Assembly (NCBI RefSeq): GCF_014201905.1
Contig: NZ_JACHFM010000001.1
Coordinates: forward strand, 1,192,994-1,256,993
Direction: 5' to 3'
DNA from: Amaricoccus macauensis
GTDB lineage: Bacteria > Pseudomonadota > Alphaproteobacteria > Rhodobacterales > Rhodobacteraceae
DNA length: 64,000 nucleotides
In this document: in pieces, positions 21,101-35,800 of the stretch
Layout of the letters: every line of letters begins with the position of its first letter
How positions within the stretch are numbered: the stretch's first letter is position 1
Program-made: the position numbers and the translations under genes
Notes under the pieces: generated by a model
Seen by the model: the letters and a program-made list of their open reading frames with translations, nothing else
Told to the model about the DNA's origin: nothing
Database searches by the model: none

Positions 21101-21373
21101 TCAGCTGCGCAGGCTCACGAGATTGTGGACGTGGACGTGATCGCCCGCCGACGCCGCGGCCGTCATCCGGCCGATCACCTCGCCGTACTTTCGCACCGGT
21201 TCCCCCTCCCCCAGCGCGCGAACCGCGACCTTGTGCCCGAGCGGCAGCGCCTCCGCGGCGGTCAGGCTCAGGGTGCCGTGGGCGCCGATGAGCATGATCT
21301 CGGCCCCGGAGGCCACCGCTTCGACGAGCACCGCCACGTCGTCGCGCGGGTCGAGGAGAACCGCGCGACTCAC
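21101..21373 (-). CDS. UxaA-family small subunit (SAF domain)
   Basis: A 90-residue stand-alone SAF domain equivalent to the N-terminal domain of altronate dehydratase UxaA and to SuyA of sulfolactate sulfo-lyase. Conserved pieces are [35 protein letters not shown] and GDHVHVHN. The start is GTG 21373, overlapping the stop of the upstream dehydrogenase by 4 bases (GTGA), which implies translational coupling. Its large partner is probably the product of 25936-27117, five genes earlier in the same operon. It is the last gene of that operon. The substrate is not settled (see findings). Confidence 0.88.
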
Positions 21374-22278
21374 GCGGCCTCGCCTGCGCCGAGCCGGATG
21401 CTGACGCCCGCGGCATCCTCGCGCAGCTTCAGGACCGCGCCCACGTCGGCACCGGCGAGCCCGCGATCCATCGCCTCCTGAAGCGTCGCGACGGTCGCCG
21501 CCCCGATCGGCGCATCAAGGCCAAGCGCCGCGTTCATCGCCATGGCGAGCCGGCAGTCCTTGTGCGCGAGCTTGACCATGAAGCCCGGCTCGAAGTCGCC
21601 CTTGAGCGCGCGGTTGTGCATGGCGACGGCGAGTTGCTGGTTCCACGCCATCGTCGTCTTCAGCACGCTGATCATCGTATCGAGCGTCAATCCGGCCTTC
21701 GCGCCAGCGACCAGCGCCTCGGAGCTTGCGGCGATGAGCACGCTCGCGAGGAGGTTGTTCGTGAGCTTCATCGCCTGGCCCATGCCAAGATCGCCGCAGC
21801 GGATGAGGTCGCTGCCCATGCAGGCGAGGACCGGGCGCGCCGTCTCGATCGCCTCCGGATCGCCGCCGAGCATCAGGGTCGAGGTCCCGGCGATCGCGTG
21901 CTCCACGGTCTTGCCAACCGGGCTGTCGATCATCGCGGCGCCCCTGGCCGCCACCTTCGCGCCGACGCGCTTCGTGGTCTCCGGGTCGATGGTGCTGAGG
22001 TCCACGTAGATCGCGCCCGGCCGGAGCCCGGCGACGATTCCGTCGGGTCCATCCGCCGTCGCCTCGACATCGGGTGCGTCCGGCAGGCTGGTGATGACGA
22101 TGTCCGACGCCTCCGCCACCGCGCGCGGGCTCGCGGCCGCAACGGCGCCCGCCGCGACGAGGGCCTCCACCGCCTGCGTGTTGAGATCATAAACGGTGAG
22201 CGAGTGCCCACCCTTCATCACGTTGCGCGCCATGGGAGCGCCCATGGTTCCCAGCCCTATGAAACCGACCGATGCCAT
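21370..22278 (-). CDS. NAD(P)-dependent beta-hydroxyacid dehydrogenase, YihU-like
   Basis: 302 residues. A Rossmann domain (GFIGLGTMGAPMARN, residues 5-19) is followed by an all-helical domain with the catalytic Lys at 171 (AMKLTNN). The substrate loop reads DSPVGKT (residues 118-124) where classical 3-hydroxyisobutyrate dehydrogenases have PVSGG. From memory, E. coli sulfolactaldehyde reductase YihU has PVGRT there, with Arg123 binding the sulfonate; here residue 123 is Lys. Length and spacing align without gaps as far as I can judge. It may act on sulfolactaldehyde or a related C3/C4 aldehyde acid. It is translationally coupled to the small UxaA gene and 56 bases downstream of the ABC binding protein. 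Confidence 0.85.
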   Translation of the reverse strand: MASVGFIGLGTMGAPMARNVMKGGHSLTVYDLNTQAVEALVAAGAVAAASPRAVAEASDIVITSLPDAPDVEATADGPDGIVAGLRPGAIYVDLSTIDPETTKRVGAKVAARGAAMIDSPVGKTVEHAIAGTSTLMLGGDPEAIETARPVLACMGSDLIRCGDLGMGQAMKLTNNLLASVLIAASSEALVAGAKAGLTLDTMISVLKTTMAWNQQLAVAMHNRALKGDFEPGFMVKLAHKDCRLAMAMNAALGLDAPIGAATVATLQEAMDRGLAGADVGAVLKLREDAAGVSIRLGAGEAA

Positions 22279-22334
22279 TTTTCTTCTTCCTTCGAGGTCT
22301 TTGCCGGCCCCCGGACGGGGCCGGCGTCAGGTGT

Positions 22335-23579
22335 TCAGCCCGCCGGCTTCCAGCCGTCCATCTTCCAGACCGGCAGGCCGCGCAGGTCGGTCGCCGCCGG
22401 GTCGGTGAAGTCCGCGTCAGGGGGAAGCGCGCCGGACGCGGCATAAGCCTTCTCGGCGATCGGCGCTGCCTTGGCGAACGCGCCCTTCACCTGCTCGTCG
22501 CTGAGCGGCGCGGGAATGAGCTTGCCCGCGACCATGTAGTCCGAGATCTGCCGGATCGCCGCCGCGTCGCCCTCGGTCGGCCAGGCCCAGCCGCGCTGGA
22601 TCAGCACCTCGTCCGCCACGATCTTCGCGCCAAGCTCGGGCGGCAGCTCCCAGTACGTCTTCGCCAGGTCCGACACCGCTTCCGGCGCCTCGGCCTTCAG
22701 CGCCACGACGGCGCGCTGGCTCGCGATCAGGAAGGCCTGCCCCACCGCGGCGTTTTCGCCGACGATGTCGTCCGTGCAGATCCAGAACGAGCGGTGCAGG
22801 TAGTAGCCGTCCGGGTAGAAGGCCGACTTCTTCACGCCGGGCAGCAGATGGCCCGCCCCCTCGCCCGCCGGCCCGGAATAGCCGTCCTCGGTGTAGCCGA
22901 AGGAGTTCATGATCCCCTTCACCCCGATCTCCGCCTGCGCCTTCAGGAAGGCCGGGTAGCCCGCGATAGCCGCGTCCATGCCGGTGGGCACCGAAGCCGC
23001 CTGCGCCTGCGTCGGCGTGTTGACGACGGTGATGCCGTGCGCCTTCGGATCGGCGTCCCCGAGTTCCAGCGCCAGCATCTGCGACAGGGCGTTGGCCGGG
23101 TCACCGCCGACGAGCGCGCCCACCGTCTTGCCCTTCAGGTCGTCGATCGTCCTGATGGGCGAGTCCTTCGGCACCGTCAGGACGAAGCGCATGTGCCCCT
23201 CGCCGAGGGTCAGCACATTCAGCGGCTGCTCCTGCGAGAGAAGGCGCACGATCGGGGTATTGCCCCACATCCCGATGTCGAGATCGCCCGCGAGGAACGC
23301 CTCGACCTGCGGCAGCGCTGAAGGGTAGTCGCGCCAGTCGACGGTAAGATCGACGCCGAGTTCCTTCGCCGCCGCCTCGAAGAGGCCGTCGTTCATCATC
23401 TTCTGGGTGATCGGCGAGTTGCCCGCCGCCCACGGCTGGCGCCCGACCGAGACCTTCACGGAAGAGCCCTGCGCCCGCACCAGCGCCGGAGCAAACAGCG
23501 CCCCGGCCGCTGCCGCCGCGACGAAGCCGCGACGGCCCATCTGCGGGCCTTTCCAGCCAGACATTCCGGTCTTTCTCAT
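22335..23579 (-). CDS. ABC transporter substrate-binding protein, NMT1/SsuA-TauA type
   Basis: A 414-residue periplasmic binding protein. The N-terminus has a Tat-like signal (MGRRGFVAAAAAGALFAPAL, cut near VRAQG). The mature part begins VKVSVGRQPW and keeps the typical FLAGDLDIGMWGNTPIV, PKDSPIRTIDDLKGKTVGA and MDAAIAGYPAFLKA elements of sulfonate, taurine or thiamine-precursor binding proteins. ATG 23579 follows GGGAGGGG. It is encoded last among the ABC genes, after the ATPase, an order less common than binding protein first. The ligand is probably an anionic small molecule, a sulfonate being the family-based guess. Confidence 0.88.
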   Translation of the reverse strand: MRKTGMSGWKGPQMGRRGFVAAAAAGALFAPALVRAQGSSVKVSVGRQPWAAGNSPITQKMMNDGLFEAAAKELGVDLTVDWRDYPSALPQVEAFLAGDLDIGMWGNTPIVRLLSQEQPLNVLTLGEGHMRFVLTVPKDSPIRTIDDLKGKTVGALVGGDPANALSQMLALELGDADPKAHGITVVNTPTQAQAASVPTGMDAAIAGYPAFLKAQAEIGVKGIMNSFGYTEDGYSGPAGEGAGHLLPGVKKSAFYPDGYYLHRSFWICTDDIVGENAAVGQAFLIASQRAVVALKAEAPEAVSDLAKTYWELPPELGAKIVADEVLIQRGWAWPTEGDAAAIRQISDYMVAGKLIPAPLSDEQVKGAFAKAAPIAEKAYAASGALPPDADFTDPAATDLRGLPVWKMDGWKPAG

Positions 23580-23616
23580 TGGTTCCCCTCCCTGTTGCGC
23601 CATCGTTGCCGGCGTC

Positions 23617-24426
23617 TCATTCCACCGTCGCCCGGATGGCCTCGTCGCGGATCAGTTCCCAGATCGAGCGCGAGAGATCGGCGAAGGCCGCCGTCGCGCG
23701 CGTCGCCTCGTTGCGCGGTCGCGGCAGATCGACATCGACGATCGCCTTCAGCCGGCCCGGCCGGCTGCCGAGGACCACCACCCGGTCGGCGAGATAGACC
23801 GCCTCGTCGATGCCATGGGTGATGAAGACCACCGTCCGCCGCTCCGCCGCCGGCTGGTCCTGCCGCCAGATGCGCAGGATCTCGTCCTGCAGCACCAGCC
23901 GGGTCTGGGCGTCGAGTGCGGCAAGCGGCTCGTCCATCAGCAGGACTTCCGGCTCGTTGGCGATGAGCCGCCCCAGCGCCACGCGCTGGCGCATTCCGCC
24001 CGAGAGCTGGTGCGGGTAGCGCTCTTCCGCGCCACCGAGGTTCACGAGATCGATCACCCGCGCCACCCGCGCCTCGCGCGCGGCGCGGTCGAGCCCGGCG
24101 CCCGCCGGCCCGTGGGTGAGCCCGAAGCCGACGTTGCCGCGCACCGTCTGCCACGGGAAGAGCGCGTAGTCCTGAAACATCACCCCCCGGTCCGGGCCGG
24201 GGCCGGCGATCGGCTTGCCGTCGAGCAGGATCGTGCCCGAGCTTTGCCGGTCGAGCCCGGCGAGCATGTTGAGGACGGTCGTCTTGCCCGAGCCGGACGG
24301 CCCGACGATGGCGAGGAACTCGCCCGGGCGGATGTCGAGGCTCAGGTCATCGAGGGCGACGAAGCTGTCGAACATCTTGCCCACATGCTCGAGGCGGATC
24401 TTCGGCTCGTTCGGGACGGTCATCAT
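23617..24426 (-). CDS. ABC transporter ATP-binding protein, SsuB/TauB type
   Basis: A 269-residue nucleotide-binding subunit. Walker A is GPSGSGKTT, the Q-loop is VMFQDYALFPW, the signature is LSGGMRQR and Walker B is VLLMDEPLAALDA with the switch His in VFITHGIDEAV. These are features of the nitrate/sulfonate/taurine subfamily. I chose ATG 24426 because GGAG lies 6 bases upstream and it overlaps the permease stop as ATGA; a GTG at 24438 is possible. It serves the two permeases encoded immediately upstream. Confidence 0.93.
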   Translation of the reverse strand: MMTVPNEPKIRLEHVGKMFDSFVALDDLSLDIRPGEFLAIVGPSGSGKTTVLNMLAGLDRQSSGTILLDGKPIAGPGPDRGVMFQDYALFPWQTVRGNVGFGLTHGPAGAGLDRAAREARVARVIDLVNLGGAEERYPHQLSGGMRQRVALGRLIANEPEVLLMDEPLAALDAQTRLVLQDEILRIWRQDQPAAERRTVVFITHGIDEAVYLADRVVVLGSRPGRLKAIVDVDLPRPRNEATRATAAFADLSRSIWELIRDEAIRATVE

Positions 24427-25178
24427 GGGTGGCTCCACGGAAAGGCCCGCGCGAGCAGCGCACGGAGGCCGCGGTCTAGGAGCATCGCGACGAGGCCGAC
24501 GGCGGCCATGCAGACGACGATGCCCGAAAGCTGGATGGAATAGGCGTAGAAGACGAACATCATCTGCCCGATGCCACCGGAGGTGCCGGCCTTGGCGCCG
24601 ACCGCGAGCTCGGCGGCGATGATCGCCGTCCAGGCGATCCCGAGACCGATCCGCATTCCCACGAGGATCGAGGGGAGCGCCGCCGGCAGGACCACGGTGC
24701 GGAGCCGGGTGAGCGGCGAGATGCCCATGGTTCGCGCCGCCCGGATGAGGCTCCGGTCGATACGCTTCACGCCCGCGATCGTGTTGATCAGGATCGGGAA
24801 GAACGCCGCGTAGGCGACAATCGTCACCGCCGCGAGGTTGCCGGTGCCGATCCAGAGGATGACGAGCGGCAGGATGGCGATGGCGGCGATCGGCCGGAAG
24901 CTCTCGACCAGCGGATCGAGGTTGCGCTCGACCACCGGCAGCGTCCCCATGGCGAGCCCGAGCGGCACCGCGAGCAGGGTGGCGAGGACGAAGCCGCCGA
25001 AGACCCGGCCGAGGCTCGTCGCGAGCGCCGCGAGGAGCGTGCCGTCCGCCAGCATCTCGACCGCCTTCAGTGCCGTCGTCGACGGGCGCGGCGCGCGCGG
25101 CGAGCCCGACAGGGCCACGAGAATTTCCCAGAGCACGATCAGCGCCAGCGGCAGCGCGAGTTGCCGAAGCGTCCTCAT
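24423..25178 (-). CDS. ABC transporter permease, SsuC/TauC type (second permease)
   Basis: A 251-residue inner-membrane permease with five to six hydrophobic helices. The coupling (EAA-like) loop is AARTMGISPLTRLRTVVLPA, followed by LPSILVGMRIGLG. Start ATG 25178 overlaps the preceding permease stop (ATGA), with GAAGGA about 10 bases upstream. It differs clearly in sequence from its neighbour at 25175-25936, so the transporter is probably a heterodimer, whereas TauC and SsuC usually work as homodimers. Confidence 0.92.
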   Translation of the reverse strand: MRTLRQLALPLALIVLWEILVALSGSPRAPRPSTTALKAVEMLADGTLLAALATSLGRVFGGFVLATLLAVPLGLAMGTLPVVERNLDPLVESFRPIAAIAILPLVILWIGTGNLAAVTIVAYAAFFPILINTIAGVKRIDRSLIRAARTMGISPLTRLRTVVLPAALPSILVGMRIGLGIAWTAIIAAELAVGAKAGTSGGIGQMMFVFYAYSIQLSGIVVCMAAVGLVAMLLDRGLRALLARAFPWSHP

Positions 25179-25936
25179 GGCCGGATGTCCTTCGCCCACG
25201 GCATGAGGCGCGCCTCGAGCGCGCGGAGGCCGGCGTCGGTCAGGAAGCCCAGCACGCCGATCATCGCGATGAATGCCATCACCGTCGGCGTTGCGAGCAT
25301 CGAGCGGTAGTATTCGATCGCGTAGCCGAGACCGCTCGGCGCACCGACGAGCTCCGCCGCGACCACCGCCGTCCAGGACGCCGCCACCGCGAGGCGGAGC
25401 GAGACCATGATCGCCGGCAGTGCCGCCGGCAGCACCACATGGCGGATGCGCGTGACCCCGGTGACACCCATGGTGGCGGACGCCGCGAGAAGCCTCGCGT
25501 CAACGTTGCGCACGCCGGCGGCGGTGCCGATCACCAGCGGAAAGAACGCCGAATAGAACATGATGAAGATCGGCAGGCGGCTGCCGATGCCGAAGATGAA
25601 GAGCGCGAGCGGGATCCAGGCGATGCCGGCGACCGGCCGGAGCATCTCGACGAGCAGGTCGAAGGCATCGCGCCACGCCCGGCTGAGGCCCATGGCGATG
25701 CCGAGCGGGATCGCCGTCAGCGCCGCCACCGCGACCGCCAGCACGAGGCGCAGCAGGCTGATCCCGGCGTTGCGAAGGAGCTCACCGTCGAGCGCCGACT
25801 GGCGGACCGCGTCGAGCACGAGGAGCGGCGAGGGCAGGAGCAACCGGCTCCCGACGAGGAGCGAAAGCCCGTACCAGGCGAGGGCGAAGATCGCCATCGT
25901 CCTCAGGTAGACGAGAAGGCCACCGACCCGTGCCAT
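25175..25936 (-). CDS. ABC transporter permease, SsuC/TauC type (first permease)
   Basis: A 253-residue inner-membrane permease. Hydrophobic helices begin at residue about 8 (LLVYLRTMAIFALAWYGLSL). The coupling loop SATMGVTGVTRIRHVVLPAA and the following LPAIMVSLRLAVAASW identify the family. The ATG at 25936 shares its A with the stop of the UxaA-like gene (TGATG). The same motif pattern as in the next permease supports a heterodimer. Confidence 0.92.
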   Translation of the reverse strand: MARVGGLLVYLRTMAIFALAWYGLSLLVGSRLLLPSPLLVLDAVRQSALDGELLRNAGISLLRLVLAVAVAALTAIPLGIAMGLSRAWRDAFDLLVEMLRPVAGIAWIPLALFIFGIGSRLPIFIMFYSAFFPLVIGTAAGVRNVDARLLAASATMGVTGVTRIRHVVLPAALPAIMVSLRLAVAASWTAVVAAELVGAPSGLGYAIEYYRSMLATPTVMAFIAMIGVLGFLTDAGLRALEARLMPWAKDIRP

Positions 25937-27117
25937 CAGAGCGCCCCCCTGAGCCGCGTCGGGACTTCCAGCCCCTCGCCCAGCGCCTCGCCCCAGGTGA
26001 GCGTGCCGCCCGCGATCTCGCCGGCGAGCCCCAGCAGCCGCCCGGCCGCCGCCTCTGCCGTCTCGGTCCCGGAAAAGACCGGGCTCGCGTCGAAGTCGAT
26101 CTGCTCGGGCAGCCGCGCCGCCGTCCCGGCGTTCGCGGTGAGCTTGATCGTCGGTGCGATCGCGCTCGCGTAGCTGTTGCCCGGTCCGGTGGAGAAGACC
26201 ATGAGCTGCGCCCCGACCGCCGCGAACGCGGTCATGGAGACCGGCGAGAACGACGGCCCGTCCATCAGCCAGAGCCCGGGCCGCCCCGGCCGCTCGGTCA
26301 GCCCGACCAGCCCCTCGATCGGCCGCGACCCGGCCTTCGCCACGGCGCCGAGCGCCTTTTCCTCGATGGTCGAGAGGCCGCCGCGGATGTTCTCCTCGCC
26401 CGGGTTGTTGCCGGTGAGGCTCGCGCCGCTGGCCGCGACCATAGCCTGCCGCGCCGCCACGGCGCCGACGATCGCGGCCCCGGTCCCGGGCGTCCGGGCG
26501 CGGGCGGCGAGCAGGTGTTCGGCACCCAGCCACTCGACCGTCTCGCCCACGAGCACGGTGGCTCCCATGTCGACCAGCCGGTCGACCAGCGCGCCGATCA
26601 CCCGGTTCCCCGCGATCCCCGAGGTTGCGTCCGAATGCCCGCACTCGACGCCCACGGTCAGCGCCGACAGCTGCACCGGCCCGCGCCGTGCCGCCGATGC
26701 CGCGCGCGCCAGCGTCGCGAGGCGGCGGCAGCCGAGGTCCATCACCGCGAACGCGTCCTCACCGGTCTCGGCGAAGCTCACCGCATCGACCGGCCGCCCG
26801 GCCCTCGCGATCGCGTCGCGATAGCCCTCGGTCGCCTCTTCGTCGACACCGACGATGAGCACCCCGCCAACGTTCGGGTTGAGTGCGAGGCCGAGCATCT
26901 GGGCCCGGTGGCTCGCGATGTCCGGCTCGATCTGCCCGCGCCCGTCCCGCGAGGCAACGCAGACGACGCCGGGCAGCGCGGCGGCGATCCGCTCCGCGAC
27001 CCGTGCCGCCAGCCCGTTCACCCCGAGCACCAGCACGCGGTTGCGGATGCCGACGCCGCCGTCGGCCCGCGTGAAGCCGCCGAACCCTCCGGCGATTCCG
27101 TCTCCGACCCCGACCAT
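25936..27117 (-). CDS. UxaA-family large subunit, divergent at conserved cysteines
   Basis: A 393-residue homologue of the catalytic part of altronate/galactarate dehydratase and SuyB. Family marks are FTRADGGVGIRNRVLVL (15-31), VECGHSDATSGIAGN (about 155), GETVEWLGAEHLLA, NNPGEENIRGGL, EEKALGAVAKAGS, FSTGPGNSYAS and PTIKLTAN. Compared with E. coli UxaA as I remember it, three conserved cysteines are replaced: HTYGCSQ reads SRDGRGQ (56-62), IGLGCEN reads VGVDEEA (89-95), and PTVGCVNG lacks its Cys. Metal or cluster binding and chemistry may therefore differ. Its SAF domain is on a separate gene (21101-21373). Starts and stops overlap those of tctA and the permease by one base. Confidence 0.85.
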   Translation of the reverse strand: MVGVGDGIAGGFGGFTRADGGVGIRNRVLVLGVNGLAARVAERIAAALPGVVCVASRDGRGQIEPDIASHRAQMLGLALNPNVGGVLIVGVDEEATEGYRDAIARAGRPVDAVSFAETGEDAFAVMDLGCRRLATLARAASAARRGPVQLSALTVGVECGHSDATSGIAGNRVIGALVDRLVDMGATVLVGETVEWLGAEHLLAARARTPGTGAAIVGAVAARQAMVAASGASLTGNNPGEENIRGGLSTIEEKALGAVAKAGSRPIEGLVGLTERPGRPGLWLMDGPSFSPVSMTAFAAVGAQLMVFSTGPGNSYASAIAPTIKLTANAGTAARLPEQIDFDASPVFSGTETAEAAAGRLLGLAGEIAGGTLTWGEALGEGLEVPTRLRGAL

Positions 27118-28619
27118 CAATCCTCCTCGCCGAGCGCAAGCGGCGGCGCGCCCCGCCATGCGCGCCACGCCGAAAGGAGGATCACCGCAACGATGAACGC
27201 CATCACCGTGGCGCTGATCGGCCGCTCGAAGAACGTCAGGAGATCGCCGCGCGACAGCATCAGGGCCCGGCGGAAGTGCTCCTCCATCATCGGCCCGAGC
27301 ACGAAGCCGAGCAGCATCGGCGCCGCCGGCAACTCGACGAGCCGCGCCAGCCAGCCGAAAGCCCCGATCACCACCACCATCCAGACGTCGAAGATGCTGT
27401 TGTCGACGGCGTAGACCCCGATGCAGATGAACATGAGGATCGCCGGATAGAGCAGCCCGAACGGGATCGTCAGCAGCCGCACCCAGATGCCGATGAGCGG
27501 CGCGGACATCGCGAAGAGGATCAGGTTGCCGATCCAGAAGCTCATGACGAGCCCCCAGAACAGCGTCGGCGCCTGCGTCATGATCGTCGGCCCGGGCGCG
27601 ATCCCCTGGATCATCAGCATGGCGATCATGATCGCCATCGCCGCGCTTCCCGGGATGCCGAGCATCAGGGTCGGGATGAACGCGGTCTGCACCGCGGCGT
27701 TGTTCGCGGCCTCCGGGCTCGCGACGCCCTCGATCGCCCCGCGCCCGAAACGCGAGGGATCGCGCGCCACCCGCTTCTCCGCCGCATAGGCGAAGAACGT
27801 CGAGATCGCCGGCCCGGTGCCCGGCAGCGTCCCGAAGAACGAGCCGATGGCCGACCCGCGCAGCGTCGGCCAGAGGCTCTGCCGCAGGTCGTCCCGCGTC
27901 GGCCACATCGAGCGCAGGGTGATCCCCTTCGCGCTCACGGTGGCCGCCCCGGCGACGCGCACGCTCATGATGATCTCGGCGACCCCGAAGAGGCCCATGG
28001 CGAGCGCGGCGATGTCGATGCCGTCGGCCAAGCTCGGCACCCCGAAGACGAAGCGGTAGGCGCCGGTGGAGAGGTCGGTCCCGACGGTCCCGAGCAGCAC
28101 CCCGAAGGCGACCATGGCGAGGCCTTTCGCGAGCGACCCCGCCGACATCGACGCCGCCGCGACGAGCCCGAGCAGCATGAGCGAGAAGTATTCCGTCGGC
28201 CCGAAGGCGATGGCGTAGGTGGCGATCGCCGGCGCGAAGGCCATCAGCACCACGATGCCGATGCTGCCGCCGACCAGCGAGGACAGCGCCGCGACGAAAA
28301 GCGCCACACCCGCGCGCCCCTGCTTCGCCATGGGATAGCCGTCGAGGCTCGTCACCGCCGACGACGCCTCGCCCGGCACGTTGAGCAGGATCGCCGCGGT
28401 CGAACTGCCGTAGGCGGTGCCGTACCAGATGCCCGCGAGCATGATCAGCGCCTGCGTCGCATCGAGGTGGAAGGTGAAGGGAAAGAGCATCGACAGCGCC
28501 GCGAGTGGCCCGATGCCCGGCAGCACACCGACGAGCATCCCGAGCGTCACGCCGACGAAACAGTAGAGCAGGCTCATTCCCGAGGTGGCGATGGCGAGCC
28601 CTGCGAGCACGTTCTCCAT
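27117..28619 (-). CDS. tctA: Tripartite tricarboxylate transporter, large membrane subunit TctA
   Basis: A 500-residue inner-membrane protein with about twelve hydrophobic segments. The diagnostic N-terminal block is PGIGPLAALSMLFPFTFHLD followed by LIMLAGIWYGTAYGSSTAAI and LNVPGEASS; a mirrored block near residue 250 reads GTLPGTGPAISTFFAYAAEK. With TctB and a TctC binding protein it forms a proton- or sodium-coupled importer for carboxylates or related anions. Its ATG (28619) shares a base with the tctB stop, and its stop shares a base with the next start, so the group is tightly coupled. Confidence 0.95.
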   Translation of the reverse strand: MENVLAGLAIATSGMSLLYCFVGVTLGMLVGVLPGIGPLAALSMLFPFTFHLDATQALIMLAGIWYGTAYGSSTAAILLNVPGEASSAVTSLDGYPMAKQGRAGVALFVAALSSLVGGSIGIVVLMAFAPAIATYAIAFGPTEYFSLMLLGLVAAASMSAGSLAKGLAMVAFGVLLGTVGTDLSTGAYRFVFGVPSLADGIDIAALAMGLFGVAEIIMSVRVAGAATVSAKGITLRSMWPTRDDLRQSLWPTLRGSAIGSFFGTLPGTGPAISTFFAYAAEKRVARDPSRFGRGAIEGVASPEAANNAAVQTAFIPTLMLGIPGSAAMAIMIAMLMIQGIAPGPTIMTQAPTLFWGLVMSFWIGNLILFAMSAPLIGIWVRLLTIPFGLLYPAILMFICIGVYAVDNSIFDVWMVVVIGAFGWLARLVELPAAPMLLGFVLGPMMEEHFRRALMLSRGDLLTFFERPISATVMAFIVAVILLSAWRAWRGAPPLALGEED

Positions 28620-29069: not shown

Positions 29070-30494
29070 TCAGGCCGGGACCGGGTCGCGCCGCGCCCGC
29101 GCAGCGTTCCCGGCAAGCTGCGCGCGCAGCCGCGCCGCGACCTCCGGCTGCTCGCCCGCCAGGTCCCGCCCCTCGCAAGGATCGCGTGCCGGATCGACCA
29201 GCGGTGCCGTGCGGATCGTGGCCGGATCGAACCGCGCGTCCTCCATCTCGCGCCGCGCCACGCCCGGATCCCAGCCCGCGACGAGCTTGAGCTTGCCGTC
29301 GAAGGCGATCCGCCACTGGCCGAGCCCCGAGAAGACCACCTCGCGCGGCCGGATGCCCGGATCGGCGAGTGCCGGCACCAGCGACACGCTGTCGGTGCCC
29401 GGGATCGCCTCGGCCCCGGCGAGTTCGAGCACCGTCGCGTGCAGGTCGAGCAGGCTGACCGGCCCGGTGCATTCCCCTGTCGCCACGCCCGGACCCGCGA
29501 TGATCAGCGGCACCCCGATCGAGGACTGGTAGGGCACGAACTTTTCCCAGCGGCCGCAGTCGCCGAGCATCTCGCCGTGATCGCTCGTCATCACGATCAC
29601 CGTCCGCTCGAGCTGGCCGGTCTCGGCGAGCGCCGCGACGAAGCGGCCGAAAATCTCGTCAAGCCGCTCGACCATCGCGGTGTAGATCCGCCGGATCCCG
29701 GTGTGCGGCGCCTCCGGGTCGGCGTTGCCCACGGGCGGCGGCATCTCGCGCCCGGCGACCGAGGCCGCCATCGCCTCGGTGATGTTCATCGGCTCATGCG
29801 GCCCGGCGAGGTTCACCTGCAGGAACCACGGACGTTCCCCCTGCCCCGCCTCGCGCACGAGATCGAGCCCGCAGTCACCGATCCAGTCGTCCTGATACGC
29901 GTCATCCGGCAGCGGCGACGCCGCGAGGTTGCGGAAGTTCGGTCCCGCACCCGGGTGGCTTTCCGCGGCCACCCCGAGCGCCGGGTTGCGACGTTCGGCA
30001 AAATCCGCCACATGCGCCTCGGCGAGCCCGCGTTCGCGCAGGAAATCGAGGTAGGGCTCCGGCGCACCGGCCCTGTGCGCGATCAGGACCGCGTGCTTGC
30101 CGCCACTGTCGAGCCCGCCGGTGAAGCCGAGTTCGCCAAGACGCCCATCATGCTGTCCGTCCGTGCCCCAGTCGAGTTCGCCCTTCAGCAGGTCGAGCTT
30201 GCCGCAGGTCAGCACCTGATATCCCGACGCGGCGAGCTGGCGATAGAAGTTCGGCTCTTCGATCCCGACACTGAAGCGATTGTTCGGCACCGTGCAGCGA
30301 TCGTACTCGTAGCCGGTGGCGAGCGAGGCCCGCGACGGCCCGCAGATCGGCGACGGGCAGATCGCCGACGAGAAGCTCACGCCGCGCGCGGCGAGGGCGT
30401 CGATATTCGGCGTGCGCGCGCCCCCACGATTCGCCGGGCCAACCCAGTCAGGCCGCAGCTGATCGGGCATGAAGATCAGGACATTTGGCCGCAT
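29070..30494 (-). CDS. Sulfatase, formylglycine-dependent, cytoplasmic
   Basis: A 474-residue alkaline-phosphatase-superfamily sulfatase. The activation motif is CGPSR with the nucleophile Cys51, matured to formylglycine, followed by ASLATG. Asp10-11 region metal ligands are in PDQLRPDWVG, and the second metal site is VIVMTSDHGEMLGDCGRWEK. No signal peptide is present, so the substrate should be hydrolysed in the cytoplasm after import. GGAGG precedes the ATG at 30494. It is the first gene of the ten-gene operon leading to two transporters. The substrate is unknown; choline-sulfatase-like or sugar-sulfate enzymes are alternatives, as are phosphonate monoester hydrolases. Confidence 0.9.
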   Translation of the reverse strand: MRPNVLIFMPDQLRPDWVGPANRGGARTPNIDALAARGVSFSSAICPSPICGPSRASLATGYEYDRCTVPNNRFSVGIEEPNFYRQLAASGYQVLTCGKLDLLKGELDWGTDGQHDGRLGELGFTGGLDSGGKHAVLIAHRAGAPEPYLDFLRERGLAEAHVADFAERRNPALGVAAESHPGAGPNFRNLAASPLPDDAYQDDWIGDCGLDLVREAGQGERPWFLQVNLAGPHEPMNITEAMAASVAGREMPPPVGNADPEAPHTGIRRIYTAMVERLDEIFGRFVAALAETGQLERTVIVMTSDHGEMLGDCGRWEKFVPYQSSIGVPLIIAGPGVATGECTGPVSLLDLHATVLELAGAEAIPGTDSVSLVPALADPGIRPREVVFSGLGQWRIAFDGKLKLVAGWDPGVARREMEDARFDPATIRTAPLVDPARDPCEGRDLAGEQPEVAARLRAQLAGNAARARRDPVPA

Positions 30495-30525
30495 CGCACT
30501 GGGGCCTCCATGGTTGACAGGAATC

Positions 30526-30587
30526 TTTGATCATATAGTCAGGAATAGCGCAAGGCTGCGGCACGCAAACCTGCATGATTTGATCAA
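30526..30587. promoter_or_regulatory. Two TTTGATCA operator-like sites in the sulfatase/aldo-keto reductase divergent region
   Basis: TTTGATCAT at 30526-30534 and TTTGATCAA at 30579-30587 sit between two divergent start codons. A TTGACA box at 30514-30519 precedes the first site. The same word recurs in the gntR/tctC gap, so these are probable binding sites for the GntR protein encoded at 32777. Confidence 0.6.
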
Positions 30588-30597
30588 GGACCATGGA

Positions 30598-31596
30598 ATG
30601 AAACGCAATCGGCTCGGCGGCACGTCGGTCGAGGTCTCGGCTCTCGGGCTCGGCTGCGGGCCGCTCGGCGGGCTGTTCGGGCGGATCGACGACGACACGG
30701 CCAGCGCCACCGTCACCGCCGCACTCGACGCCGGCATCAGCTATTTCGATACCTCGCCCCTCTACGGCCACGGTCTCTCCGAGCACCGCCTCGGCACCGG
30801 CCTGCGCCACACCCGCGACCGGGCGGTGATCTCGACCAAGGTCGGCCGCCTCCTCCGCCCTGCCGGTCCCGCCGGGCCGGAGCCCAGCATGTTCCGCGAA
30901 AAGCTGCCCTTCGACGTCGTCTGCGACTACAGCCGCGACGGTGTCCTGCGCTCGTTCGAGGACAGTCTTCAGCGCCTCGGCACCGATCGCGTCGAAATCC
31001 TCTATGTCCACGACCTCAGCCGGCAGTGGCTCGGTGACGCGGTCGAAGACCGCTTTCGCGAGCTGATGGACGGCGGCTATCCGGCGCTGGTCGAACTGCG
31101 CGCCGCGGGTGTCATCGGCGCGATCGGCGTCGGCATGAACGACACCGCCATGCTGACGCGCTTCGCGGCGGCCGGCGACTTCGATGTCTTCATGCTGGCC
31201 GGCCGGTACACGCTGCTCGACCAGTCGGCCCTCGACGAGCTGTTCCCGGCCTGTACCGCCCGCGGCGTCTCGATCGTTGCCGCCGGGCCCTTCAACTCCG
31301 GGATCCTCGCGACGGGCGCGACGGCGGGCGCGAAGTTCTTCTATTCCGACGCCCCGGCTGAGGTCCTCGAGCGCACCCGTCGCATCGAGGCGATCTGCGC
31401 AGACAATCGCGTGCCGCTTGCCACCGCCGCGCTCCAGTTCGCGCTCCGTCATCCCGTGGTGGCGAGCGTGGCGACCGGCATGGTCACGCCGGAGGAAGTC
31501 GCCCGGAACGTCGCCGCCTTCGCGGCAGCGGTACCCGACGCCCTCTGGACCGATCTCGCGACGTCTGGACTGCTCCATCCCGATACGCCCGTCTGA
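30598..31596 (+). CDS. Aldo/keto reductase, aldose (L-fucose/D-threo-aldose) dehydrogenase-like
   Basis: A 332-residue (alpha/beta)8 barrel NAD(P) oxidoreductase. The active-site tetrad is visible: Asp51 and Tyr56 in FDTSPLYGHGLSEHRLG, Lys81 in ISTKVGRLL, and His138 in ILYVHDL. The overall pattern (VSALGLGCGPLGGLF, and the C-terminal LQFALRHPVVASVATGM) fits the branch with D-threo-aldose 1-dehydrogenase, L-galactose/L-fucose dehydrogenase and pyridoxal dehydrogenase. Such enzymes make aldonolactones, which would suit the SMP-30 lactonase two genes away. AAGGA precedes the ATG. It is divergent from the sulfatase operon and ends in a terminator. Confidence 0.88.
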   Translation: MKRNRLGGTSVEVSALGLGCGPLGGLFGRIDDDTASATVTAALDAGISYFDTSPLYGHGLSEHRLGTGLRHTRDRAVISTKVGRLLRPAGPAGPEPSMFREKLPFDVVCDYSRDGVLRSFEDSLQRLGTDRVEILYVHDLSRQWLGDAVEDRFRELMDGGYPALVELRAAGVIGAIGVGMNDTAMLTRFAAAGDFDVFMLAGRYTLLDQSALDELFPACTARGVSIVAAGPFNSGILATGATAGAKFFYSDAPAEVLERTRRIEAICADNRVPLATAALQFALRHPVVASVATGMVTPEEVARNVAAFAAAVPDALWTDLATSGLLHPDTPV

Positions 31597-31636
31597 GCCG
31601 CGCCCACCGGCCTGAGCGGCCGCGGGAGTGAGCAAC

Positions 31637-31660
31637 GCGGCCGGCGCACCGGCCGCTTTT
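31637..31660 (+). terminator. Intrinsic terminator of the aldo/keto reductase gene
   Basis: GCGGCCGG (31637-31644) pairs perfectly with 31649-31656 over the loop CGCA and is followed by TTTT. It lies between the convergent aldo/keto reductase and tctC ends. Confidence 0.85.
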
Positions 31661-31664
31661 CCGC

Positions 31665-32636
31665 TCAGTTGGTCTCGACGCCGGCCTTTTCGATCACCGC
31701 GGCCCAGCGCTTCATCTCGGCCTCGAGGAACGTCCCGAACTCGGCCGGCGACTGCGGCGGCACCACCTGCCAGCCGATCTTCTCGATCTGCTCCACGACC
31801 ACCGGGTCAGTCACGACCTGCGCCACCGTCGCGTTGATCTTCTCGATCACCGCGTCAGGGGTTCCCGCGGGCACGTTGAACCCGGCCCAGCCATTCGCGA
31901 CGAGCCCCGGAAACCCGGCCTCGCCGATCGTCGGCACATCCGGGATCACCTTCGAGCGCTCCGCATCGAAGATCGCCAGCGCCTTCAGCTTGCCTTCGTC
32001 GACGAGCGGCTTCGCCAGCGAGACCCCGAGCACCATGAACTGGACCCGGTTCGCCAGCAGATCGGCGATCGCCGGGGGCTGGCCGTTGTAGGGGATCATC
32101 TGCACGTCGATGCCAGCCTCGAGCTTGAAGAGTTCGCTCACCAGATGCACCAGCGACCCGATTCCCGACCCGGCGTACGAAAGCTCGCCCTCATGCTCCT
32201 TCGCGTACGCGACGAACTCCGCGACGCTCGCCACCGGCAGCTCCGCCGGCACCGCGAAGACGAATGACGTCGATCCGAACCGGATCACCGGCGCCAGATC
32301 CTTCATGGGATCAAAGCTGAGGCTCGTCGGATACATTGCCGGTGCCGTGGTGAGCGGCACCCCCGAGCTCAGCCACGTGTTCCCGTCCGGCGCGGCCTTT
32401 GCCGCCTCGTCGGTGCCGATGTTGCCGCCTGCCCCGGGTTTGGCCTCCACCAGGATCGGCTGGCCGAGGATTGGCGCCATCTTCTCGGTCACGACCCGGG
32501 TGACGATGTCGGCCTGCCCGCCGGCCGGGAACGGAATGATCACCCTGATCGGCGACCCCGGCCAGTCCGCGGCGACGGCGAGACCCGGCACCGCGAGCGC
32601 CACTGCAAACGCGGCTATCCTCAGACCTTCGAGCAT
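31665..32636 (-). CDS. tctC: Tripartite tricarboxylate transporter binding protein TctC (Bug family)
   Basis: A 323-residue periplasmic binding protein with a Sec signal (residues 1-22, ending GLAVAADW). The mature start PIRVIIPFPAGGQADIVTR, the KPGAGGNIGTDEAAKAAPDG loop that contacts the ligand carboxylate, and the AGTPDAVIEKINATV block are typical of Bug proteins. ATG 32636 follows GGGAGAAC. It is separated from tctBA by the sulfatase and aldo/keto reductase genes and is divergent from gntR, with TTTGATC sites in the shared gap. The ligand is probably an anionic organic acid, to be imported by TctAB. Confidence 0.93.
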   Translation of the reverse strand: MLEGLRIAAFAVALAVPGLAVAADWPGSPIRVIIPFPAGGQADIVTRVVTEKMAPILGQPILVEAKPGAGGNIGTDEAAKAAPDGNTWLSSGVPLTTAPAMYPTSLSFDPMKDLAPVIRFGSTSFVFAVPAELPVASVAEFVAYAKEHEGELSYAGSGIGSLVHLVSELFKLEAGIDVQMIPYNGQPPAIADLLANRVQFMVLGVSLAKPLVDEGKLKALAIFDAERSKVIPDVPTIGEAGFPGLVANGWAGFNVPAGTPDAVIEKINATVAQVVTDPVVVEQIEKIGWQVVPPQSPAEFGTFLEAEMKRWAAVIEKAGVETN

Positions 32637-32701
32637 GCGACGTTCTCCCTGCTTGCGCCGGTACGGGCCGGCTCTCCCTGTTTTGCCACGCCCTACCATC
32701 G

Positions 32702-32764
32702 TTGATCAAATCTGCCAAGCTTGATCCCGAACGCACCAGCCTGTAGACCCATGTTTGATCTAAA
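32702..32764. promoter_or_regulatory. TTGATCAA-type operator cluster between tctC and gntR
   Basis: Three copies lie in the 140-base gap: 32702-32710 (TTGATCAAA, i.e. TTTGATCAA on the minus strand), 32721-32726 (TTGATC, weaker) and 32754-32764 (TTTGATCTAAA). Presumed sites for autoregulation by GntR and control of tctC. Confidence 0.6.
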
Positions 32765-32776
32765 CCCCAAAGGCCC

Positions 32777-33433
32777 ATGACGAGAAACGCCGACATAGAA
32801 AGCCGCATCCGCGACGACATCCTCCGTGGCCGCATCGGCTTCGGTGATCGCCTGCGGATCGACGATTTCGCGACCCGCTACGGCGTCAGCCACATGCCCG
32901 TGCGCGAAGCACTGCGCGTGCTGGCCGGCGAGGGGCTCATCGTCACCGAGCGGAACCGGGGGGCGCACCTGCGCCCGGTGAACCGGGAGTTCGTCGAGGA
33001 TCTCTTCGACATCCGCTCGGCCATCGAGATGATGCTGGCGCGGCGCGCAGCCGAGCGCCGGAGCCCGGAACAGCTTCGCCAGCTCGTCGAGATCGAGCAG
33101 GAGATCGAAGCCCTCGTGGAGAGGGAAGATTTCGCTGCGATCCCGACAGTCAATCGTGACTTCCATCAGGTGATCAATCAGGCCGCGCGGCACCCGGGCG
33201 CCCTGTCGGTCGTCGACGGTCAGGGACTCCTGGTCGCGGCGCTCTGGAACAAGGTCGGCAACCCGCCGGCCCGGTTCCAGTCGGTGATAGACGACCACCG
33301 CCACCTGATCATCGCCATCGAGCGCCGCGACGGCGCGGGCGCCGCCGCGCTGATGGGCGCCCACATCGAGAAATCCCGTCAGGACCTGCTGGCCCGCATG
33401 GCGATGCTCGACGCCGAGAGCGGCTCGGGATGA
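32777..33433 (+). CDS. GntR-family transcriptional regulator with FCD effector domain
   Basis: A 218-residue repressor-type protein. The winged helix spans about residues 5-70 (IDDFATRYGVSHMPVREALRVL is the recognition region). The all-helical FCD domain carries potential metal ligands in NRDFHQV, DDHRHLI and MGAHIEKS, as in FadR/VanR-like regulators of organic-acid use. It is divergent from tctC across a gap with TTTGATCAA-like sites and is translationally coupled to the lactonase gene (ATGA at 33430). The effector is probably an intermediate of the island pathway. Confidence 0.92.
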   Translation: MTRNADIESRIRDDILRGRIGFGDRLRIDDFATRYGVSHMPVREALRVLAGEGLIVTERNRGAHLRPVNREFVEDLFDIRSAIEMMLARRAAERRSPEQLRQLVEIEQEIEALVEREDFAAIPTVNRDFHQVINQAARHPGALSVVDGQGLLVAALWNKVGNPPARFQSVIDDHRHLIIAIERRDGAGAAALMGAHIEKSRQDLLARMAMLDAESGSG

Positions 33434-34347
33434 CATCCGTCGTCCCCCCGGTTGCCGCCGCTTCGATTTCCACGGCTTCGATTTCCACGGCTTCGGTTTT
33501 CACGGCCGCGGACGCCGCCGACACGCTCGGGGAGTCGCCCTGGTGGGACGTGGGCTCCGGGCGGCTCTGGTGGATCGACCTGCGTGCCCCGGCCCTGCGC
33601 AGCCTCGACGCGGCGACCGGTGACGTCGCGAGCTGGCCGATGCCCTCCCTCGTTGGTGCCGTCGTCGGCCGGCGCGCGGGCGGCGTCGTCCTCGCCCTCA
33701 CCGATGGCATCCACGGCTTCGATCCGGTGACCGGCAGCCTCGATCGCATCGCCACGGTCGATCTTCCCGGCCCATCCATGCGCCTCAACGACGCCAAGGC
33801 CGACACCGACGGCACGCTCTGGTTCGGCGCCATGCGCGACTTCGGTGCGGACGACTCCGGCGGGCTCTGGCGCCTCGTGCCGGGAGGCGTCCCCGAGCGG
33901 GTCCGAAGCGGCGTGCGGGTGCCGAATGCCATCGCCTTCGCGCCCGATGGCAACCTCTTCTTCTGCGACACGAAGGCCGGGACCATCGAGCGGGCCGCGC
34001 CTGCCACCGGGCGCCTCGACTGGGCGCCGTTCGCGGCACCGGACGTGGCGCCGGGCGCGCCGGACGGGGCGGCGGTCGACGCCGAGGGGTTCCTCTGGAA
34101 TGCCCGCTGGGGCGGCGGCGCGCTGGCGCGCATCGCGCTTGACGGCACGCTCGACCGCCTCGTCCCGCTGCCGGTGACAAACCCGACGTCCTGCGCCTTT
34201 GGCGGCGCGGAGCTCGCAACGCTTTACGTGACCACCGCCCGACAGGGCCTCTGCCCGGAACGCCTCGCCCGGGAGCCGCTCGCGGGCGCGCTGCTGGCCC
34301 TCGACGTCGGCGTTCGCGGGGTGCCCGAGCCGGCCTTCGCGGGATGA
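33430..34347 (+). CDS. SMP-30/gluconolactonase family lactonase
   Basis: A 305-residue six-bladed beta-propeller that opens sugar lactones. The divalent-metal ligands of the family are all present: Glu35 (LGESPWWD), Asn121 (MRLNDAKAD), Asn167 (VPNAIAFAPDG) and Asp213 (APDGAAVDAEG). There is no signal peptide, so it is cytoplasmic. Its ATG overlaps the gntR stop. It would hydrolyse the lactone made by the aldo/keto reductase. The N-terminus holds three 15-base tandem repeats, listed separately. Sulfogluconolactonases belong to this family, so a sulfosugar substrate is possible but not shown. Confidence 0.92.
   Translation: MTSVVPPVAAASISTASISTASVFTAADAADTLGESPWWDVGSGRLWWIDLRAPALRSLDAATGDVASWPMPSLVGAVVGRRAGGVVLALTDGIHGFDPVTGSLDRIATVDLPGPSMRLNDAKADTDGTLWFGAMRDFGADDSGGLWRLVPGGVPERVRSGVRVPNAIAFAPDGNLFFCDTKAGTIERAAPATGRLDWAPFAAPDVAPGAPDGAAVDAEGFLWNARWGGGALARIALDGTLDRLVPLPVTNPTSCAFGGAELATLYVTTARQGLCPERLAREPLAGALLALDVGVRGVPEPAFAG
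33460..33504 (+). repeat. Three in-frame 15-base tandem repeats in the lactonase N-terminus
   Basis: Units GCTTCGATTTCCACG (33460-33474 and 33475-33489, identical) and GCTTCGGTTTTCACG (33490-33504) encode SIST-A, SIST-A, SVFT-A. Copy changes would stay in frame. They precede the first propeller strand, so they probably form a flexible leader. Confidence 0.85.
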
Positions 34348-34357
34348 GGAGACATGC

Positions 34358-35800
34358 GTGACTGACCGCCCCAACATCGTCTGGATCATGGGAGACGAGT
34401 TCCGCACCGACTCGCTCTCGTGCTACGGCACTCCGTTCCCGGAGGTGGTGACCCCGCACATCGACCGCATCGCGGCGTCCGGCGTCCGGTTCACCAACTG
34501 CTACTGCAATTCCCCCATCTGCGTGCCGGCGCGCACCAGCTTCATGACCGCGACCCTGCCCGAGACCAACGGCGTCTATGGCAACGAAGGCTCATGGGCG
34601 TCCTTCCCGTGGGACCGCGACCTCGTGACCCTGCCGGAAGTCTTCACCGCCGCGGGATATCGCACGATCAACTTCGGCAAGACCCACCTGCCGCGGGCGC
34701 TCCACGCCTGGGAGACCGACGAGCACGACGGGGCAGACCTCGGCAACTTCTATGTCGGAACCGATCCGTCGCTTCGCGATGACGAAATCTACACCCCGAC
34801 GCTGAAAGCCGCGATCGGCGGCACATTCCGCGGGCCGGCCGAGTTTCCCGGCAACCGCGTCACGCGCAATGCCGTGCGCTGGCTCGGGGAGGAGGCGCGG
34901 GCGGGCGAGCCGTTCTTCCTCGGCGTCGGCTATCTGCAACCGCACAGCCCCGTGGTGCCGCCCGCGCCCTATGCCGGCCTCTACGACGCGCTGCCGTGGC
35001 CCGAGGGCGTGGGCGACGCGCCGCCGGGCTCGGACTACGAGCGTGTCTTCGCCGGTGAGCTTCGCACCGACGCGCTCTCGCCGGACGAGTTCCGCCGCAT
35101 TCATGCGGACTATCACGCGCTGGTCCGTTGGCTCGATGATCAGGTTGGCGCCGTGCTCGATGCGCTGGAGGCGAGCGGCCTCGCGGAGAATACCATCGTC
35201 GTGCTCGAAGCCGACCACGGGGTGTCGCTGGGCGAGAGCGGACGGCTGCAGAAGCACACCTTCTCTCCCGAGGTGCACCGCATCCCGCGCCTGATCGCGT
35301 GGCCGGGCAGGCTTCCGGCGGGCCAGGTGCGGGGCGATCTCGTGCAGTCCCTCGACCTCGCGCGCACCCTCTGCGGTCTCGCCGGAGTGGAGCCGGCGCC
35401 GACCTTTCAGGGGCGCGACCTCTTCGGCGCGGAGACTCCGCCGGAGATGATCTTCTCGACCATCGGCTTCGGCGAGCCGGAGAGCCGCGCCCTGCCGAAC
35501 CAGGTCGTCGGCACATGGAGCGACGGCACCGGCTGGCCGCGCCGATCCTGCGTGCGCACCGCGCGCTACCGCCTCGACATGACCGTCCGGCGCAATGGCG
35601 CGATGGTTTCGCCGGAGGAGGAAGACCCCTGCCTCGTCGACCTCGCCCTCGACCCCCGCGAGACCGTGAACCGCGCTGGCGATCCGCACTATGCGGGGGT
35701 GCTCGAAACCCTCCGCGCCGCGCTCCGGGCCCACGCCGCGACCGCGCACGCCCCCGCGTACGTTCCGACCTATTCCGCCGTGGAACGCGGAGTGAACTGA
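34358..35800 (+). CDS. Second sulfatase, CxPAR-type, cytoplasmic
   Basis: A 480-residue sulfatase of the alkaline phosphatase superfamily. The nucleophile Cys55 lies in CVPAR (CxPSR in most aerobic sulfatases) followed by TSFMTATLPETNG. Metal ligands are near Asp13 (MGDEFRTDSL) and in VVLEADHGVSLGESGRLQKH. No signal peptide is seen. The start is GTG 34358 preceded by GAGGAG; the nearby ATG at 34354 reads into a stop. It is 10 bases after the lactonase, so gntR, lactonase and sulfatase form one operon. It is distinct from the sulfatase at 29070 and may act on a different linkage or intermediate. Confidence 0.88.
   Translation: MTDRPNIVWIMGDEFRTDSLSCYGTPFPEVVTPHIDRIAASGVRFTNCYCNSPICVPARTSFMTATLPETNGVYGNEGSWASFPWDRDLVTLPEVFTAAGYRTINFGKTHLPRALHAWETDEHDGADLGNFYVGTDPSLRDDEIYTPTLKAAIGGTFRGPAEFPGNRVTRNAVRWLGEEARAGEPFFLGVGYLQPHSPVVPPAPYAGLYDALPWPEGVGDAPPGSDYERVFAGELRTDALSPDEFRRIHADYHALVRWLDDQVGAVLDALEASGLAENTIVVLEADHGVSLGESGRLQKHTFSPEVHRIPRLIAWPGRLPAGQVRGDLVQSLDLARTLCGLAGVEPAPTFQGRDLFGAETPPEMIFSTIGFGEPESRALPNQVVGTWSDGTGWPRRSCVRTARYRLDMTVRRNGAMVSPEEEDPCLVDLALDPRETVNRAGDPHYAGVLETLRAALRAHAATAHAPAYVPTYSAVERGVN

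Follow-up and report, generated by a model that had tools for sequence, protein, structure and literature searches.

Sulfated and sulfonated sugars hold a large share of algal and plant carbon and sulfur, and in the well-known routes for their use, either sulfate is removed from polysaccharides outside the cytoplasm or a sulfonate group at C6 is carried along through reactions that resemble glycolysis. In the alphaproteobacterium Amaricoccus macauensis, a 64,000-nucleotide stretch (hereafter the window; contig NZ_JACHFM010000001.1, positions 1,192,994 to 1,256,993) contains a catabolic island at window positions 21101–35800 that combines sulfatases, a split lyase of the UxaA superfamily, a YihU-like dehydrogenase, and an ATP-binding cassette (ABC) importer. 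We propose that this island serves the uptake and breakdown of an anionic sugar of small size, with O-sulfated aldoses and sugar acids as the likeliest candidates, and put the probability of this reading at about one half. The nearest described cluster is that of the sulfofucolytic Entner-Doudoroff pathway of Paracoccus wurundjeri, reported in 2025 (SfcH, SfcD, SfcF, SfcE; excerpts of PMC12421959).

As far as the excerpts of that report go (PMC12421959), the two loci are alike in clustering a sugar dehydrogenase, an SMP-30-type lactonase, an acid-sugar dehydratase, and an ABC importer. Peculiar to the P. wurundjeri cluster are a short-chain dehydrogenase/reductase (SDR), a dehydratase of the enolase type, SlcC/ComC/SuyAB, and a PF03328 aldolase encoded within the cluster. 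The island in the window has instead the split UxaA, an aldo/keto reductase (AKR), two sulfatases, a tripartite tricarboxylate transporter (TTT), and the YihU-like enzyme, and lacks an aldolase gene. The sulfo-Entner-Doudoroff (sulfo-ED) pathway of Pseudomonas putida SQ1 resembles the island in the outline of its reaction logic, and differs in its sulfogluconate dehydratase of family PF00920 (excerpts of PMC12421959) and in oxidizing 3-sulfolactaldehyde to sulfolactate by SlaB (excerpts of PMC12890257); neither a PF00920 dehydratase nor SlaB was seen in the window's island. The sulfo-ED arrangement of sugar dehydrogenase, lactonase, and importer recurs in the window at the level of family only, and the split UxaA stands in place of a PF00920 or enolase-type dehydratase, both absent from the cluster.

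Our best reading is that the island is a variant of the sulfosugar-ED theme with another class of lyase and with cytoplasmic sulfatases. Its parts belong to known families; the combination, the presence of a cysteine-poor UxaA clade in a sugar island, and a dehydrogenase clade marked by a GKT motif look new, and the split lyase and the dehydrogenase each represent a new branch of a family with known members in sulfonate degradation. A word search of the open-licence literature turned up no paper describing this gene set, in agreement with the initial annotation, made from the sequence alone, whose author knew of no pathway with exactly these genes. If correct, the proposal would add a route that joins sulfonate-like ABC import of an anionic sugar with cytoplasmic sulfatases, a noncanonical lyase, and shared operators, and it would give a role to the cysteine-poor UxaA homologues and the YihU-like clade, for neither of which we have so far found one.

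The island consists of a tight ten-gene operon on the minus strand (21101–30494) and an adjoining second arm (30598–35800). Coordinates, start and stop codons, family scans, and sequence matches in the Protein Data Bank (PDB) bear out the content and order given for the operon in the initial annotation, including its overlapping or adjacent starts: six of the nine junctions overlap by 1–16 bases, and the remaining three are spaced by 4, 13, and 56 bp. The first gene encodes a sulfatase (sulf1, 29070–30494), with a 59% identical counterpart in the related island of Rhizobiales bacterium 2SD (L037), and is followed by the small and large membrane subunits of the TTT, tctB (28619–29065; PF07331) and tctA (27117–28619; PF01970, 499.9 bits). 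The large half of the split UxaA/GarD-superfamily lyase (uxaA_L, 25936–27117; PF04295 and PF20629) precedes the importer, which comprises two SsuC/TauC-type permeases (perm1, 25175–25936, with PF00528 and best NCBIfam matches to SaoP, TauC, and SsuC, all below cut-off; perm2, 24423–25178, identified by family scans), an ATPase (23617–24438; nearest models SaoA, nitrate, and taurine, below cut-off), and a distant SsuA/TauA-like solute-binding protein (SBP, 22335–23603). The YihU-like beta-hydroxyacid dehydrogenase (21370–22278), with the motif DSPVGKT, and the small, SAF-domain half of the split UxaA (uxaA_S, 21101–21373; PF08666) complete the operon; uxaA_S begins with GTG and overlaps the preceding gene by 4 bases (the family scans used the limits 21101–21370).

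The second arm encodes an AKR of the L-galactose/aldose 1-dehydrogenase type (30598–31596, plus strand, with an alternative in-frame start upstream at 30469); the TTT solute-binding protein tctC (31665–32699, minus strand), which lies apart from tctAB; a GntR-family regulator (32777–33433, plus strand; NCBIfam GntR-type models, all below cut-off); an SMP-30/regucalcin-type lactonase (33430–34347, plus strand), whose best PDB sequence match is the SMP-30/Cgr1 family protein 7plb, followed by regucalcins; and a second sulfatase (sulf2, 34358–35800, plus strand). TctC has no NCBIfam match and was recognized by reading its sequence and from a 51% identical homologue that adjoins tctB/tctA in L037. 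Both sulfatases have PF00884 and the C-x-P/A-x-R formylglycine motif of type I sulfatases (CGPSR in sulf1, CVPAR in sulf2), and both start straight at the catalytic domain, with no signal peptide visible by eye. Two matches to PF03781, the family of the formylglycine-generating enzyme (FGE), which includes other enzymes too, occur in the genome.

In the proposed pathway, the SsuA-like ABC importer, aided here by the TTT, would bring the sugar in with its charge still attached, and the cytoplasmic sulfatases would strip sulfate at some stage. An aldose dehydrogenase, the AKR here and an SDR elsewhere, would form a lactone to be opened by the SMP-30 protein, whereupon the split UxaA would catalyze the loss of water, or of a different leaving group, from the position beta to the carboxylate, producing a 2-keto-3-deoxy acid. 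Cleavage of this acid to pyruvate and a short aldehyde would fall to an aldolase encoded outside the island, and the YihU-like enzyme, whose basic residue would suit an anionic substrate, would reduce that aldehyde or interconvert it with its alcohol. The sequence of dehydrogenase, lactonase, acid-sugar lyase, presumed aldolase, and short-aldehyde reductase matches nonphosphorylative Entner-Doudoroff routes. Two features, the sulfonate-like importer and the basic residue in the dehydrogenase, speak for an anionic substrate, and the cytoplasmic sulfatases, whose genes lie under shared sites both in the window and in 2SD, speak for a sulfate ester in these two islands.

The gene set is more than a chance assembly: large parts of it recur in eight other genomes, as a check for conserved synteny suggested at the outset brought to light. 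Nine islands contain a close relative of the importer: that of the window, L037 of 2SD, L125/L126 (genome G516), L042, L047, L052, L123 (G319), L145 (G1146), and L146/L147 (G1134). Their SBPs are 56–67% identical to the window's (alignment A3). The island stretches read measured 9.9 to 36 kb, so that absence of a gene here means absence from those stretches. The importer is rare: besides the genome itself, the SBP was found at an E value of 1e-40 or better in one of 385 genomes drawn from the class, one of 398 drawn from the phylum, G516 alone of 347 in its own order, and four of 23 in the order of G319, three of these with close copies (60–62%). The search of named genomes with uxaA_L yielded at least 569 relatives among the 595 candidates listed, the best 80 of which were kept.

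In each of the nine islands the importer genes directly adjoin a YihU-like gene, and an AKR (as in the window and L052) or SDR (as in L037) lies nearby. Eight have a lactonase candidate, which is of the SMP-30 type in six, ApnL-like in L047 (299.8 bits, cut-off 750), and of the amidohydrolase family in L145. Parts of a split UxaA lie near eight of nine (UxaA_S in eight, UxaA_L in seven); the contig of L123 ends inside the importer, and L145 lacks UxaA, having an enolase-type protein and an amidohydrolase in place of the missing UxaA and SMP-30. L037 is nearly the same island as the window's with an SDR replacing the AKR, its sulfatases, SMP-30, and GntR genes remaining with the uxaA-importer-yihU block, and an FGE-family gene (PF03781, 236 bits) lies just beyond it. 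In L052, one open reading frame (8748–9983) fuses the SAF domain of a small UxaA to an SMP-30 lactonase, and the same run of genes encodes an RraA-like aldolase. A plasmid of Sulfitobacter mediterraneus holds a distant importer (SBP 32%) together with a sulfatase, TTT, SDR, an enolase-type protein, and two DHDPS-family proteins; it was the top one, and the one inspected, of the 20 plasmid relatives of the SBP listed from 65 records. Such replacements, in L145 and in the Sulfitobacter locus, argue that the shared purpose of these loci is sugar-acid breakdown. In the initial annotation, an imported sulfate ester or sulfonate was proposed to be desulfated in the cytoplasm, oxidized to a lactone, opened, and processed by the split UxaA; the core of that scheme stands in that AKR or SDR, lactonase candidate, and split UxaA travel together, whereas the sulfatases and tctABC prove accessory and dehydration is insecure. 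Step order and substrate we infer.

The two arms are linked by shared operator-like sites. In each of the divergent intergenic regions, sulf1/AKR and tctC/GntR, there are two near-copies of the palindrome TTTGATCAAA with the same spacing of 53 bp: pair A consists of TTTGATCATA (30526–30535) and TTTGATCAAG (30579–30588), and pair B of GTTGATCAAA (32701–32710) and TTTGATCTAA (32754–32763). Within one mismatch, the 64-kb window contains four matches, all of them these sites, against 0.21 expected, and none of 100 shuffles reached four; the whole genome (4.83 Mb) contains 13 such places, four of them in the island, compared with two for a control pattern. The motif was derived from eight intergenic regions of five GntR-bearing islands (two each from the window, L037, and L126, and one each from L147 and L123). 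Seven of the eight have two sites within one mismatch, and L037_B has one such site (0.0185 expected) and one with two mismatches; two sites arose in none of 2,000 shuffles for six regions and in one of 2,000 for the seventh (L147; the promoter tests in the window used 30495–30594). As the compared regions had served for motif discovery, fairer tests are the window and genome scans and L145, which was left out of the discovery and carries a single site where its yihU-like gene borders that for LacI, as well as two paired sites ahead of its GntR gene. No site within one mismatch was found in L042, L047, or L052, and none within two mismatches in the LacI-linked uxaA promoter of L146.

Both arms are thus probably targets of one GntR-type regulator, and, to judge from the sequence, the island probably forms one regulon through its paired TTTGATCAAA operators; the GntR protein of the island is our candidate for their binder. 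The operator pairs also offer a direct handle, as a reporter, for identification of the substrate. Lack of co-expression of the arms had been named at the outset as a finding that would speak against a joint pathway, and the paired, equally spaced sites in both divergent promoters oppose it at the level of sequence. That the island consists of two unrelated catabolic arms that are neighbors by chance is suggested by their opposite strands and by the lack of sulfatases near most related islands; given that each promoter has its two sites the same 53 bp apart, and given the persistence of both sulfatases, SMP-30, and GntR with the uxaA-importer-yihU block in 2SD, we regard it as extremely improbable.

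Further places with TTTGATCAAA-like sites in the genome include C3:245591, C3:348941, and two on C6. The only other closely paired sites, 64 bp apart (G000:C2:285646 and 285710; L168 9646 and 9710), precede an ABC operon of the oligopeptide type (SBP_bac_5), which runs on into a GDPD-family gene and a HAD hydrolase gene. No gene clearly of this pathway was seen at the operator-like places L169–L171 of this genome or L172–L175 of its relatives.

A number of observations weigh against uptake and breakdown of a sulfated sugar by the proposed steps. Sulfatases lie near only three of the nine islands (window, L037, L145) and TTT genes near four, and both are thus accessory; the G516 island has neither within 36 kb. 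Sulfatase and PF03781 matches occur somewhere in all seven island genomes searched (those of all nine but G1134 and G1146), but sulfatase genes are common, being present in 10 of 14 control genomes compared with four of 14 for PF03781, so that only PF03781 says much. Since sulfatases are both common and mostly absent from the neighborhood, sulfate esters need not be the common substrate of these islands. The SDRs of L037, L042, L047, L126, and L147 are sugar dehydrogenases only putatively. The SBP falls below the SsuA_fam cut-off (72.1 against 163.5 bits), and its resemblance to SsuA and TauA, the best PDB sequence matches, is weak. No aldolase gene was found in the window's island and no PF03328 aldolase anywhere in the window; aldolases encoded elsewhere, as the initial annotation had envisaged, number four of PF03328 and six of PF00701 in the genome, and none lies at a TTTGATCAAA place. 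Nor is the motif specific to this regulator: places within one mismatch number 60 in G516 (control 24), 66 in G1146 (control 9), 27 in G828 (control 11), 13 in G319 (control 4), and seven in G1134 (control 3). Some of those in relatives adjoin other GntR genes, as at L172, L173, and L174 (the last also with an enolase-type gene by eye), whence the motif belongs to a wider GntR group and the identity of the protein that binds it in the island can be proposed only by inference.

The split UxaA adds to these difficulties. In excerpts of PMC6336799, four cysteines, thought to bind iron, are described as conserved in UxaA/GarD enzymes with the exception of SuyAB. We placed the corresponding columns by spacing (132, 166, 199, and 264 of Escherichia coli UxaA). 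In a 114-row tree, each of the 13 rows in the UxaA/GarD clade has all four cysteines; only the last is kept in all 18 scorable rows of the window's clade (the 19th, L081, being an incomplete sequence), as in the remaining 82 rows. With three of the four iron-ligand cysteines of the characterized dehydratases missing, plain dehydration by the split UxaA is uncertain. An enolase-type gene stands directly before uxaA_L in L041 and L046 (by Pfam for L041 only), which suggests a different step there and counsels caution in assuming dehydration everywhere; the two genes overlap in what appears to be one operon (L041 8871–11421, L046 8874–11418).

The large half falls in its own 19-row clade (Shimodaira-Hasegawa-like approximate likelihood ratio 97), apart from E. 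coli UxaA and GarD and outside the 76-row clade that holds SuyB of Cupriavidus pinatubonensis; the tree was made by a quick method, contains long branches, and has one reference SuyB locus. That reference (L117, in an hpsN-hpsO locus) is annotated only as UxaA family and was taken as SuyB from its neighbors. A Variovorax protein with slcC- and comC-like neighbors (L118), at first considered a second SuyB, was set aside because it did not group with the SuyB clade. The tree position rules out membership in SuyAB, to which the split protein had earlier been likened. The likeness to SuyAB of C. pinatubonensis lies in the separate small and large halves, the loss of three of the four cysteines, and an arginine in one of the columns so vacated, and the differences in the separate clade, the other neighbors, and the placement of the halves at both ends of the transporter block. 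On sequence grounds, then, the split UxaA is SuyB-like in its missing cysteines and its split state, but is not SuyB. With the acid-sugar dehydratases UxaA, GarD, and D-arabinonate dehydratase (excerpts of PMC6336799) it has superfamily and domains in common; it differs from them in having one cysteine of the four and two halves encoded by separate genes. Within the window's clade, six rows have arginine in the second cysteine column, and a sulfatase is nearby in five of them but for no row without this arginine; as the six come mostly from one clade and some loci are short, this was not counted as evidence. Plasmid relatives of uxaA_L comprised 312 records, all below 60% identity (best among those listed, 41.5%); two loci were inspected.

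These features bear on whether the island might instead degrade a C3 sulfonate, 2,3-dihydroxypropanesulfonate (DHPS) or sulfolactate, with the YihU-like protein acting in the manner of the dehydrogenase DhpA and the split UxaA in that of the sulfo-lyase SuyAB. There is a precedent in Desulfovibrio DF1, which, according to excerpts of a review (PMC9594981), uses DhpA, a DHPS dehydrogenase homologous to YihU, followed by SlaB and SuyAB. The split UxaA has the cysteine-poor pattern and an arginine column in common with SuyB, and just one other UxaA-type match (35% identity, a 548-amino-acid open frame) turned up in the genome among the 12 of 22 candidates that were scored. The position of uxaA_L outside the SuyB clade speaks against a C3 sulfonate, as does the lack of an aldehyde dehydrogenase in the window's island, and the sugar dehydrogenase and lactonase would be left without a role; we consider it quite improbable.

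The dehydrogenase is nearest to YihU by sequence and by model. The nearest NCBIfam model is sulfolactaldehyde reductase (PRK15461; 254.9 bits), the best PDB sequence match is YihU itself (6sm7), and a Foldseek search places YihU first in the PDB with other beta-hydroxyacid dehydrogenases close behind (the model was built from five sequences, with a mean predicted local distance difference test score of 71.5 and a poor C-terminal, substrate-binding half). The score is 93 bits under the cut-off of 348, which rules out YihU membership, and in an 18-row tree the nine island dehydrogenases cluster as a single clade (97/98), and YihU belongs to another group. Where YihU has VPVGRT and GarR has APVSGG, the motif in all nine is SPVGKT, so that position 123 is lysine in nine of nine island proteins, arginine in both YihU rows, and glycine in GarR. 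Arg123 of YihU is the residue that we take to contact the sulfonate. The earlier label of YihU-like is thus apt for the nearest family by sequence and model and for a basic residue at position 123, whereas the score below cut-off and the lysine in place of Arg123, which weaken the initial reading, and the different gene neighbors set the enzyme apart from 3-sulfolactaldehyde reductase. Among plasmid relatives of the dehydrogenase (2,071 records, 30 listed, seven loci inspected), those of Paracoccus yeei and Methylobacterium currus include YihU-like proteins with a GRL motif, encoded close to two short thiamine pyrophosphate (TPP)-binding proteins (L129 8001–10231, L152 2516–4900), a layout that presumably recalls that of sulfopyruvate decarboxylase.

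A sulfonated sugar, such as sulfoquinovose or sulfofucose, would fit this kinship: AKR or SDR, SMP-30, UxaA as a sulfo-aldonate dehydratase, and an aldolase would lead to 3-sulfolactaldehyde, which the YihU-like enzyme would reduce to DHPS, with the sulfatases a side addition in certain lineages. Sulfofucose degradation employs an SDR, SMP-30, an enolase-type dehydratase, an aldolase, and an ABC importer (excerpts of PMC12421959), and L052 encodes AKR, lactonase, UxaA, an RraA-like aldolase, the YihU-like protein, and the importer without a sulfatase in 15.9 kb. On the other hand, the window and 2SD each have two sulfatases under shared sites, with an FGE gene close to those of 2SD; genes for a PF03328 aldolase, SlaB-like, and YihP-like proteins were not seen in the window's island; and the dehydrogenase is no YihU by cut-off. 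We therefore hold a sulfonated sugar to be somewhat unlikely as the substrate.

The AKR points in another direction, since its best PDB sequence matches are L-galactose dehydrogenases. The substrate might accordingly be a neutral sugar of the L-fucose, L-galactose, or D-arabinose type, the sulfatases merely removing decorations and the YihU-like enzyme acting on lactaldehyde, glycolaldehyde, or a keto acid. Excerpts of PMC6336799 describe a D-arabinonate enzyme of the UxaA superfamily and, on the strength of gene context alone, an L-fuconate dehydratase of heteromeric type, and cultured SAR202 bacteria pair many sulfatases with proposed nonphosphorylative routes for L-fucose and L-rhamnose (excerpts of PMC10444878). 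Against a neutral sugar, the importer is sulfonate-like rather than sugar-like, a YihU-like gene with an invariant basic residue accompanies it in nine of nine islands, and the UxaA lacks three dehydratase cysteines; a pathway of this kind is unlikely.

Returning to an O-sulfated sugar or sugar acid, one could also imagine a sulfate-ester analogue of the Entner-Doudoroff route, in which oxidation proceeds with the sulfate attached, the SuyB-like lyase catalyzes a beta-elimination, perhaps expelling sulfate, the YihU-like Lys123 enzyme handles a sulfated three-carbon aldehyde (e.g., glyceraldehyde sulfate), and the sulfatases act last. We know of no characterized UxaA enzyme with the beta-elimination here proposed for a cysteine-poor split lyase, and offer this scheme as a tentative and rather unlikely one.

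Several minor observations concern the related islands and the flanks. A second importer subfamily, 33–35% related, is present in L147 (3893–7550), L148 (10439–14030), and L149 (154–3745); in the first two loci, genes for an enolase-type protein and a GntR regulator lie next to it. Its occurrence suggests that importers of this kind form a wider family. At the end of the split-UxaA operon of G516, an oppositely oriented gene (L125 12757–13812) resembles, by eye, metallocarboxypeptidases or succinylglutamate desuccinylases. Beyond the island, an M24-family protein (35805–37040), nearest to ectoine hydrolase DoeA models and far below their cut-off, is encoded convergently with sulf2, and farther on an isocitrate lyase gene of the PRK06498 type, above cut-off (37797–39548), is divergent from one for a RamB-like regulator (39632–41077; 589 bits, cut-off 700).

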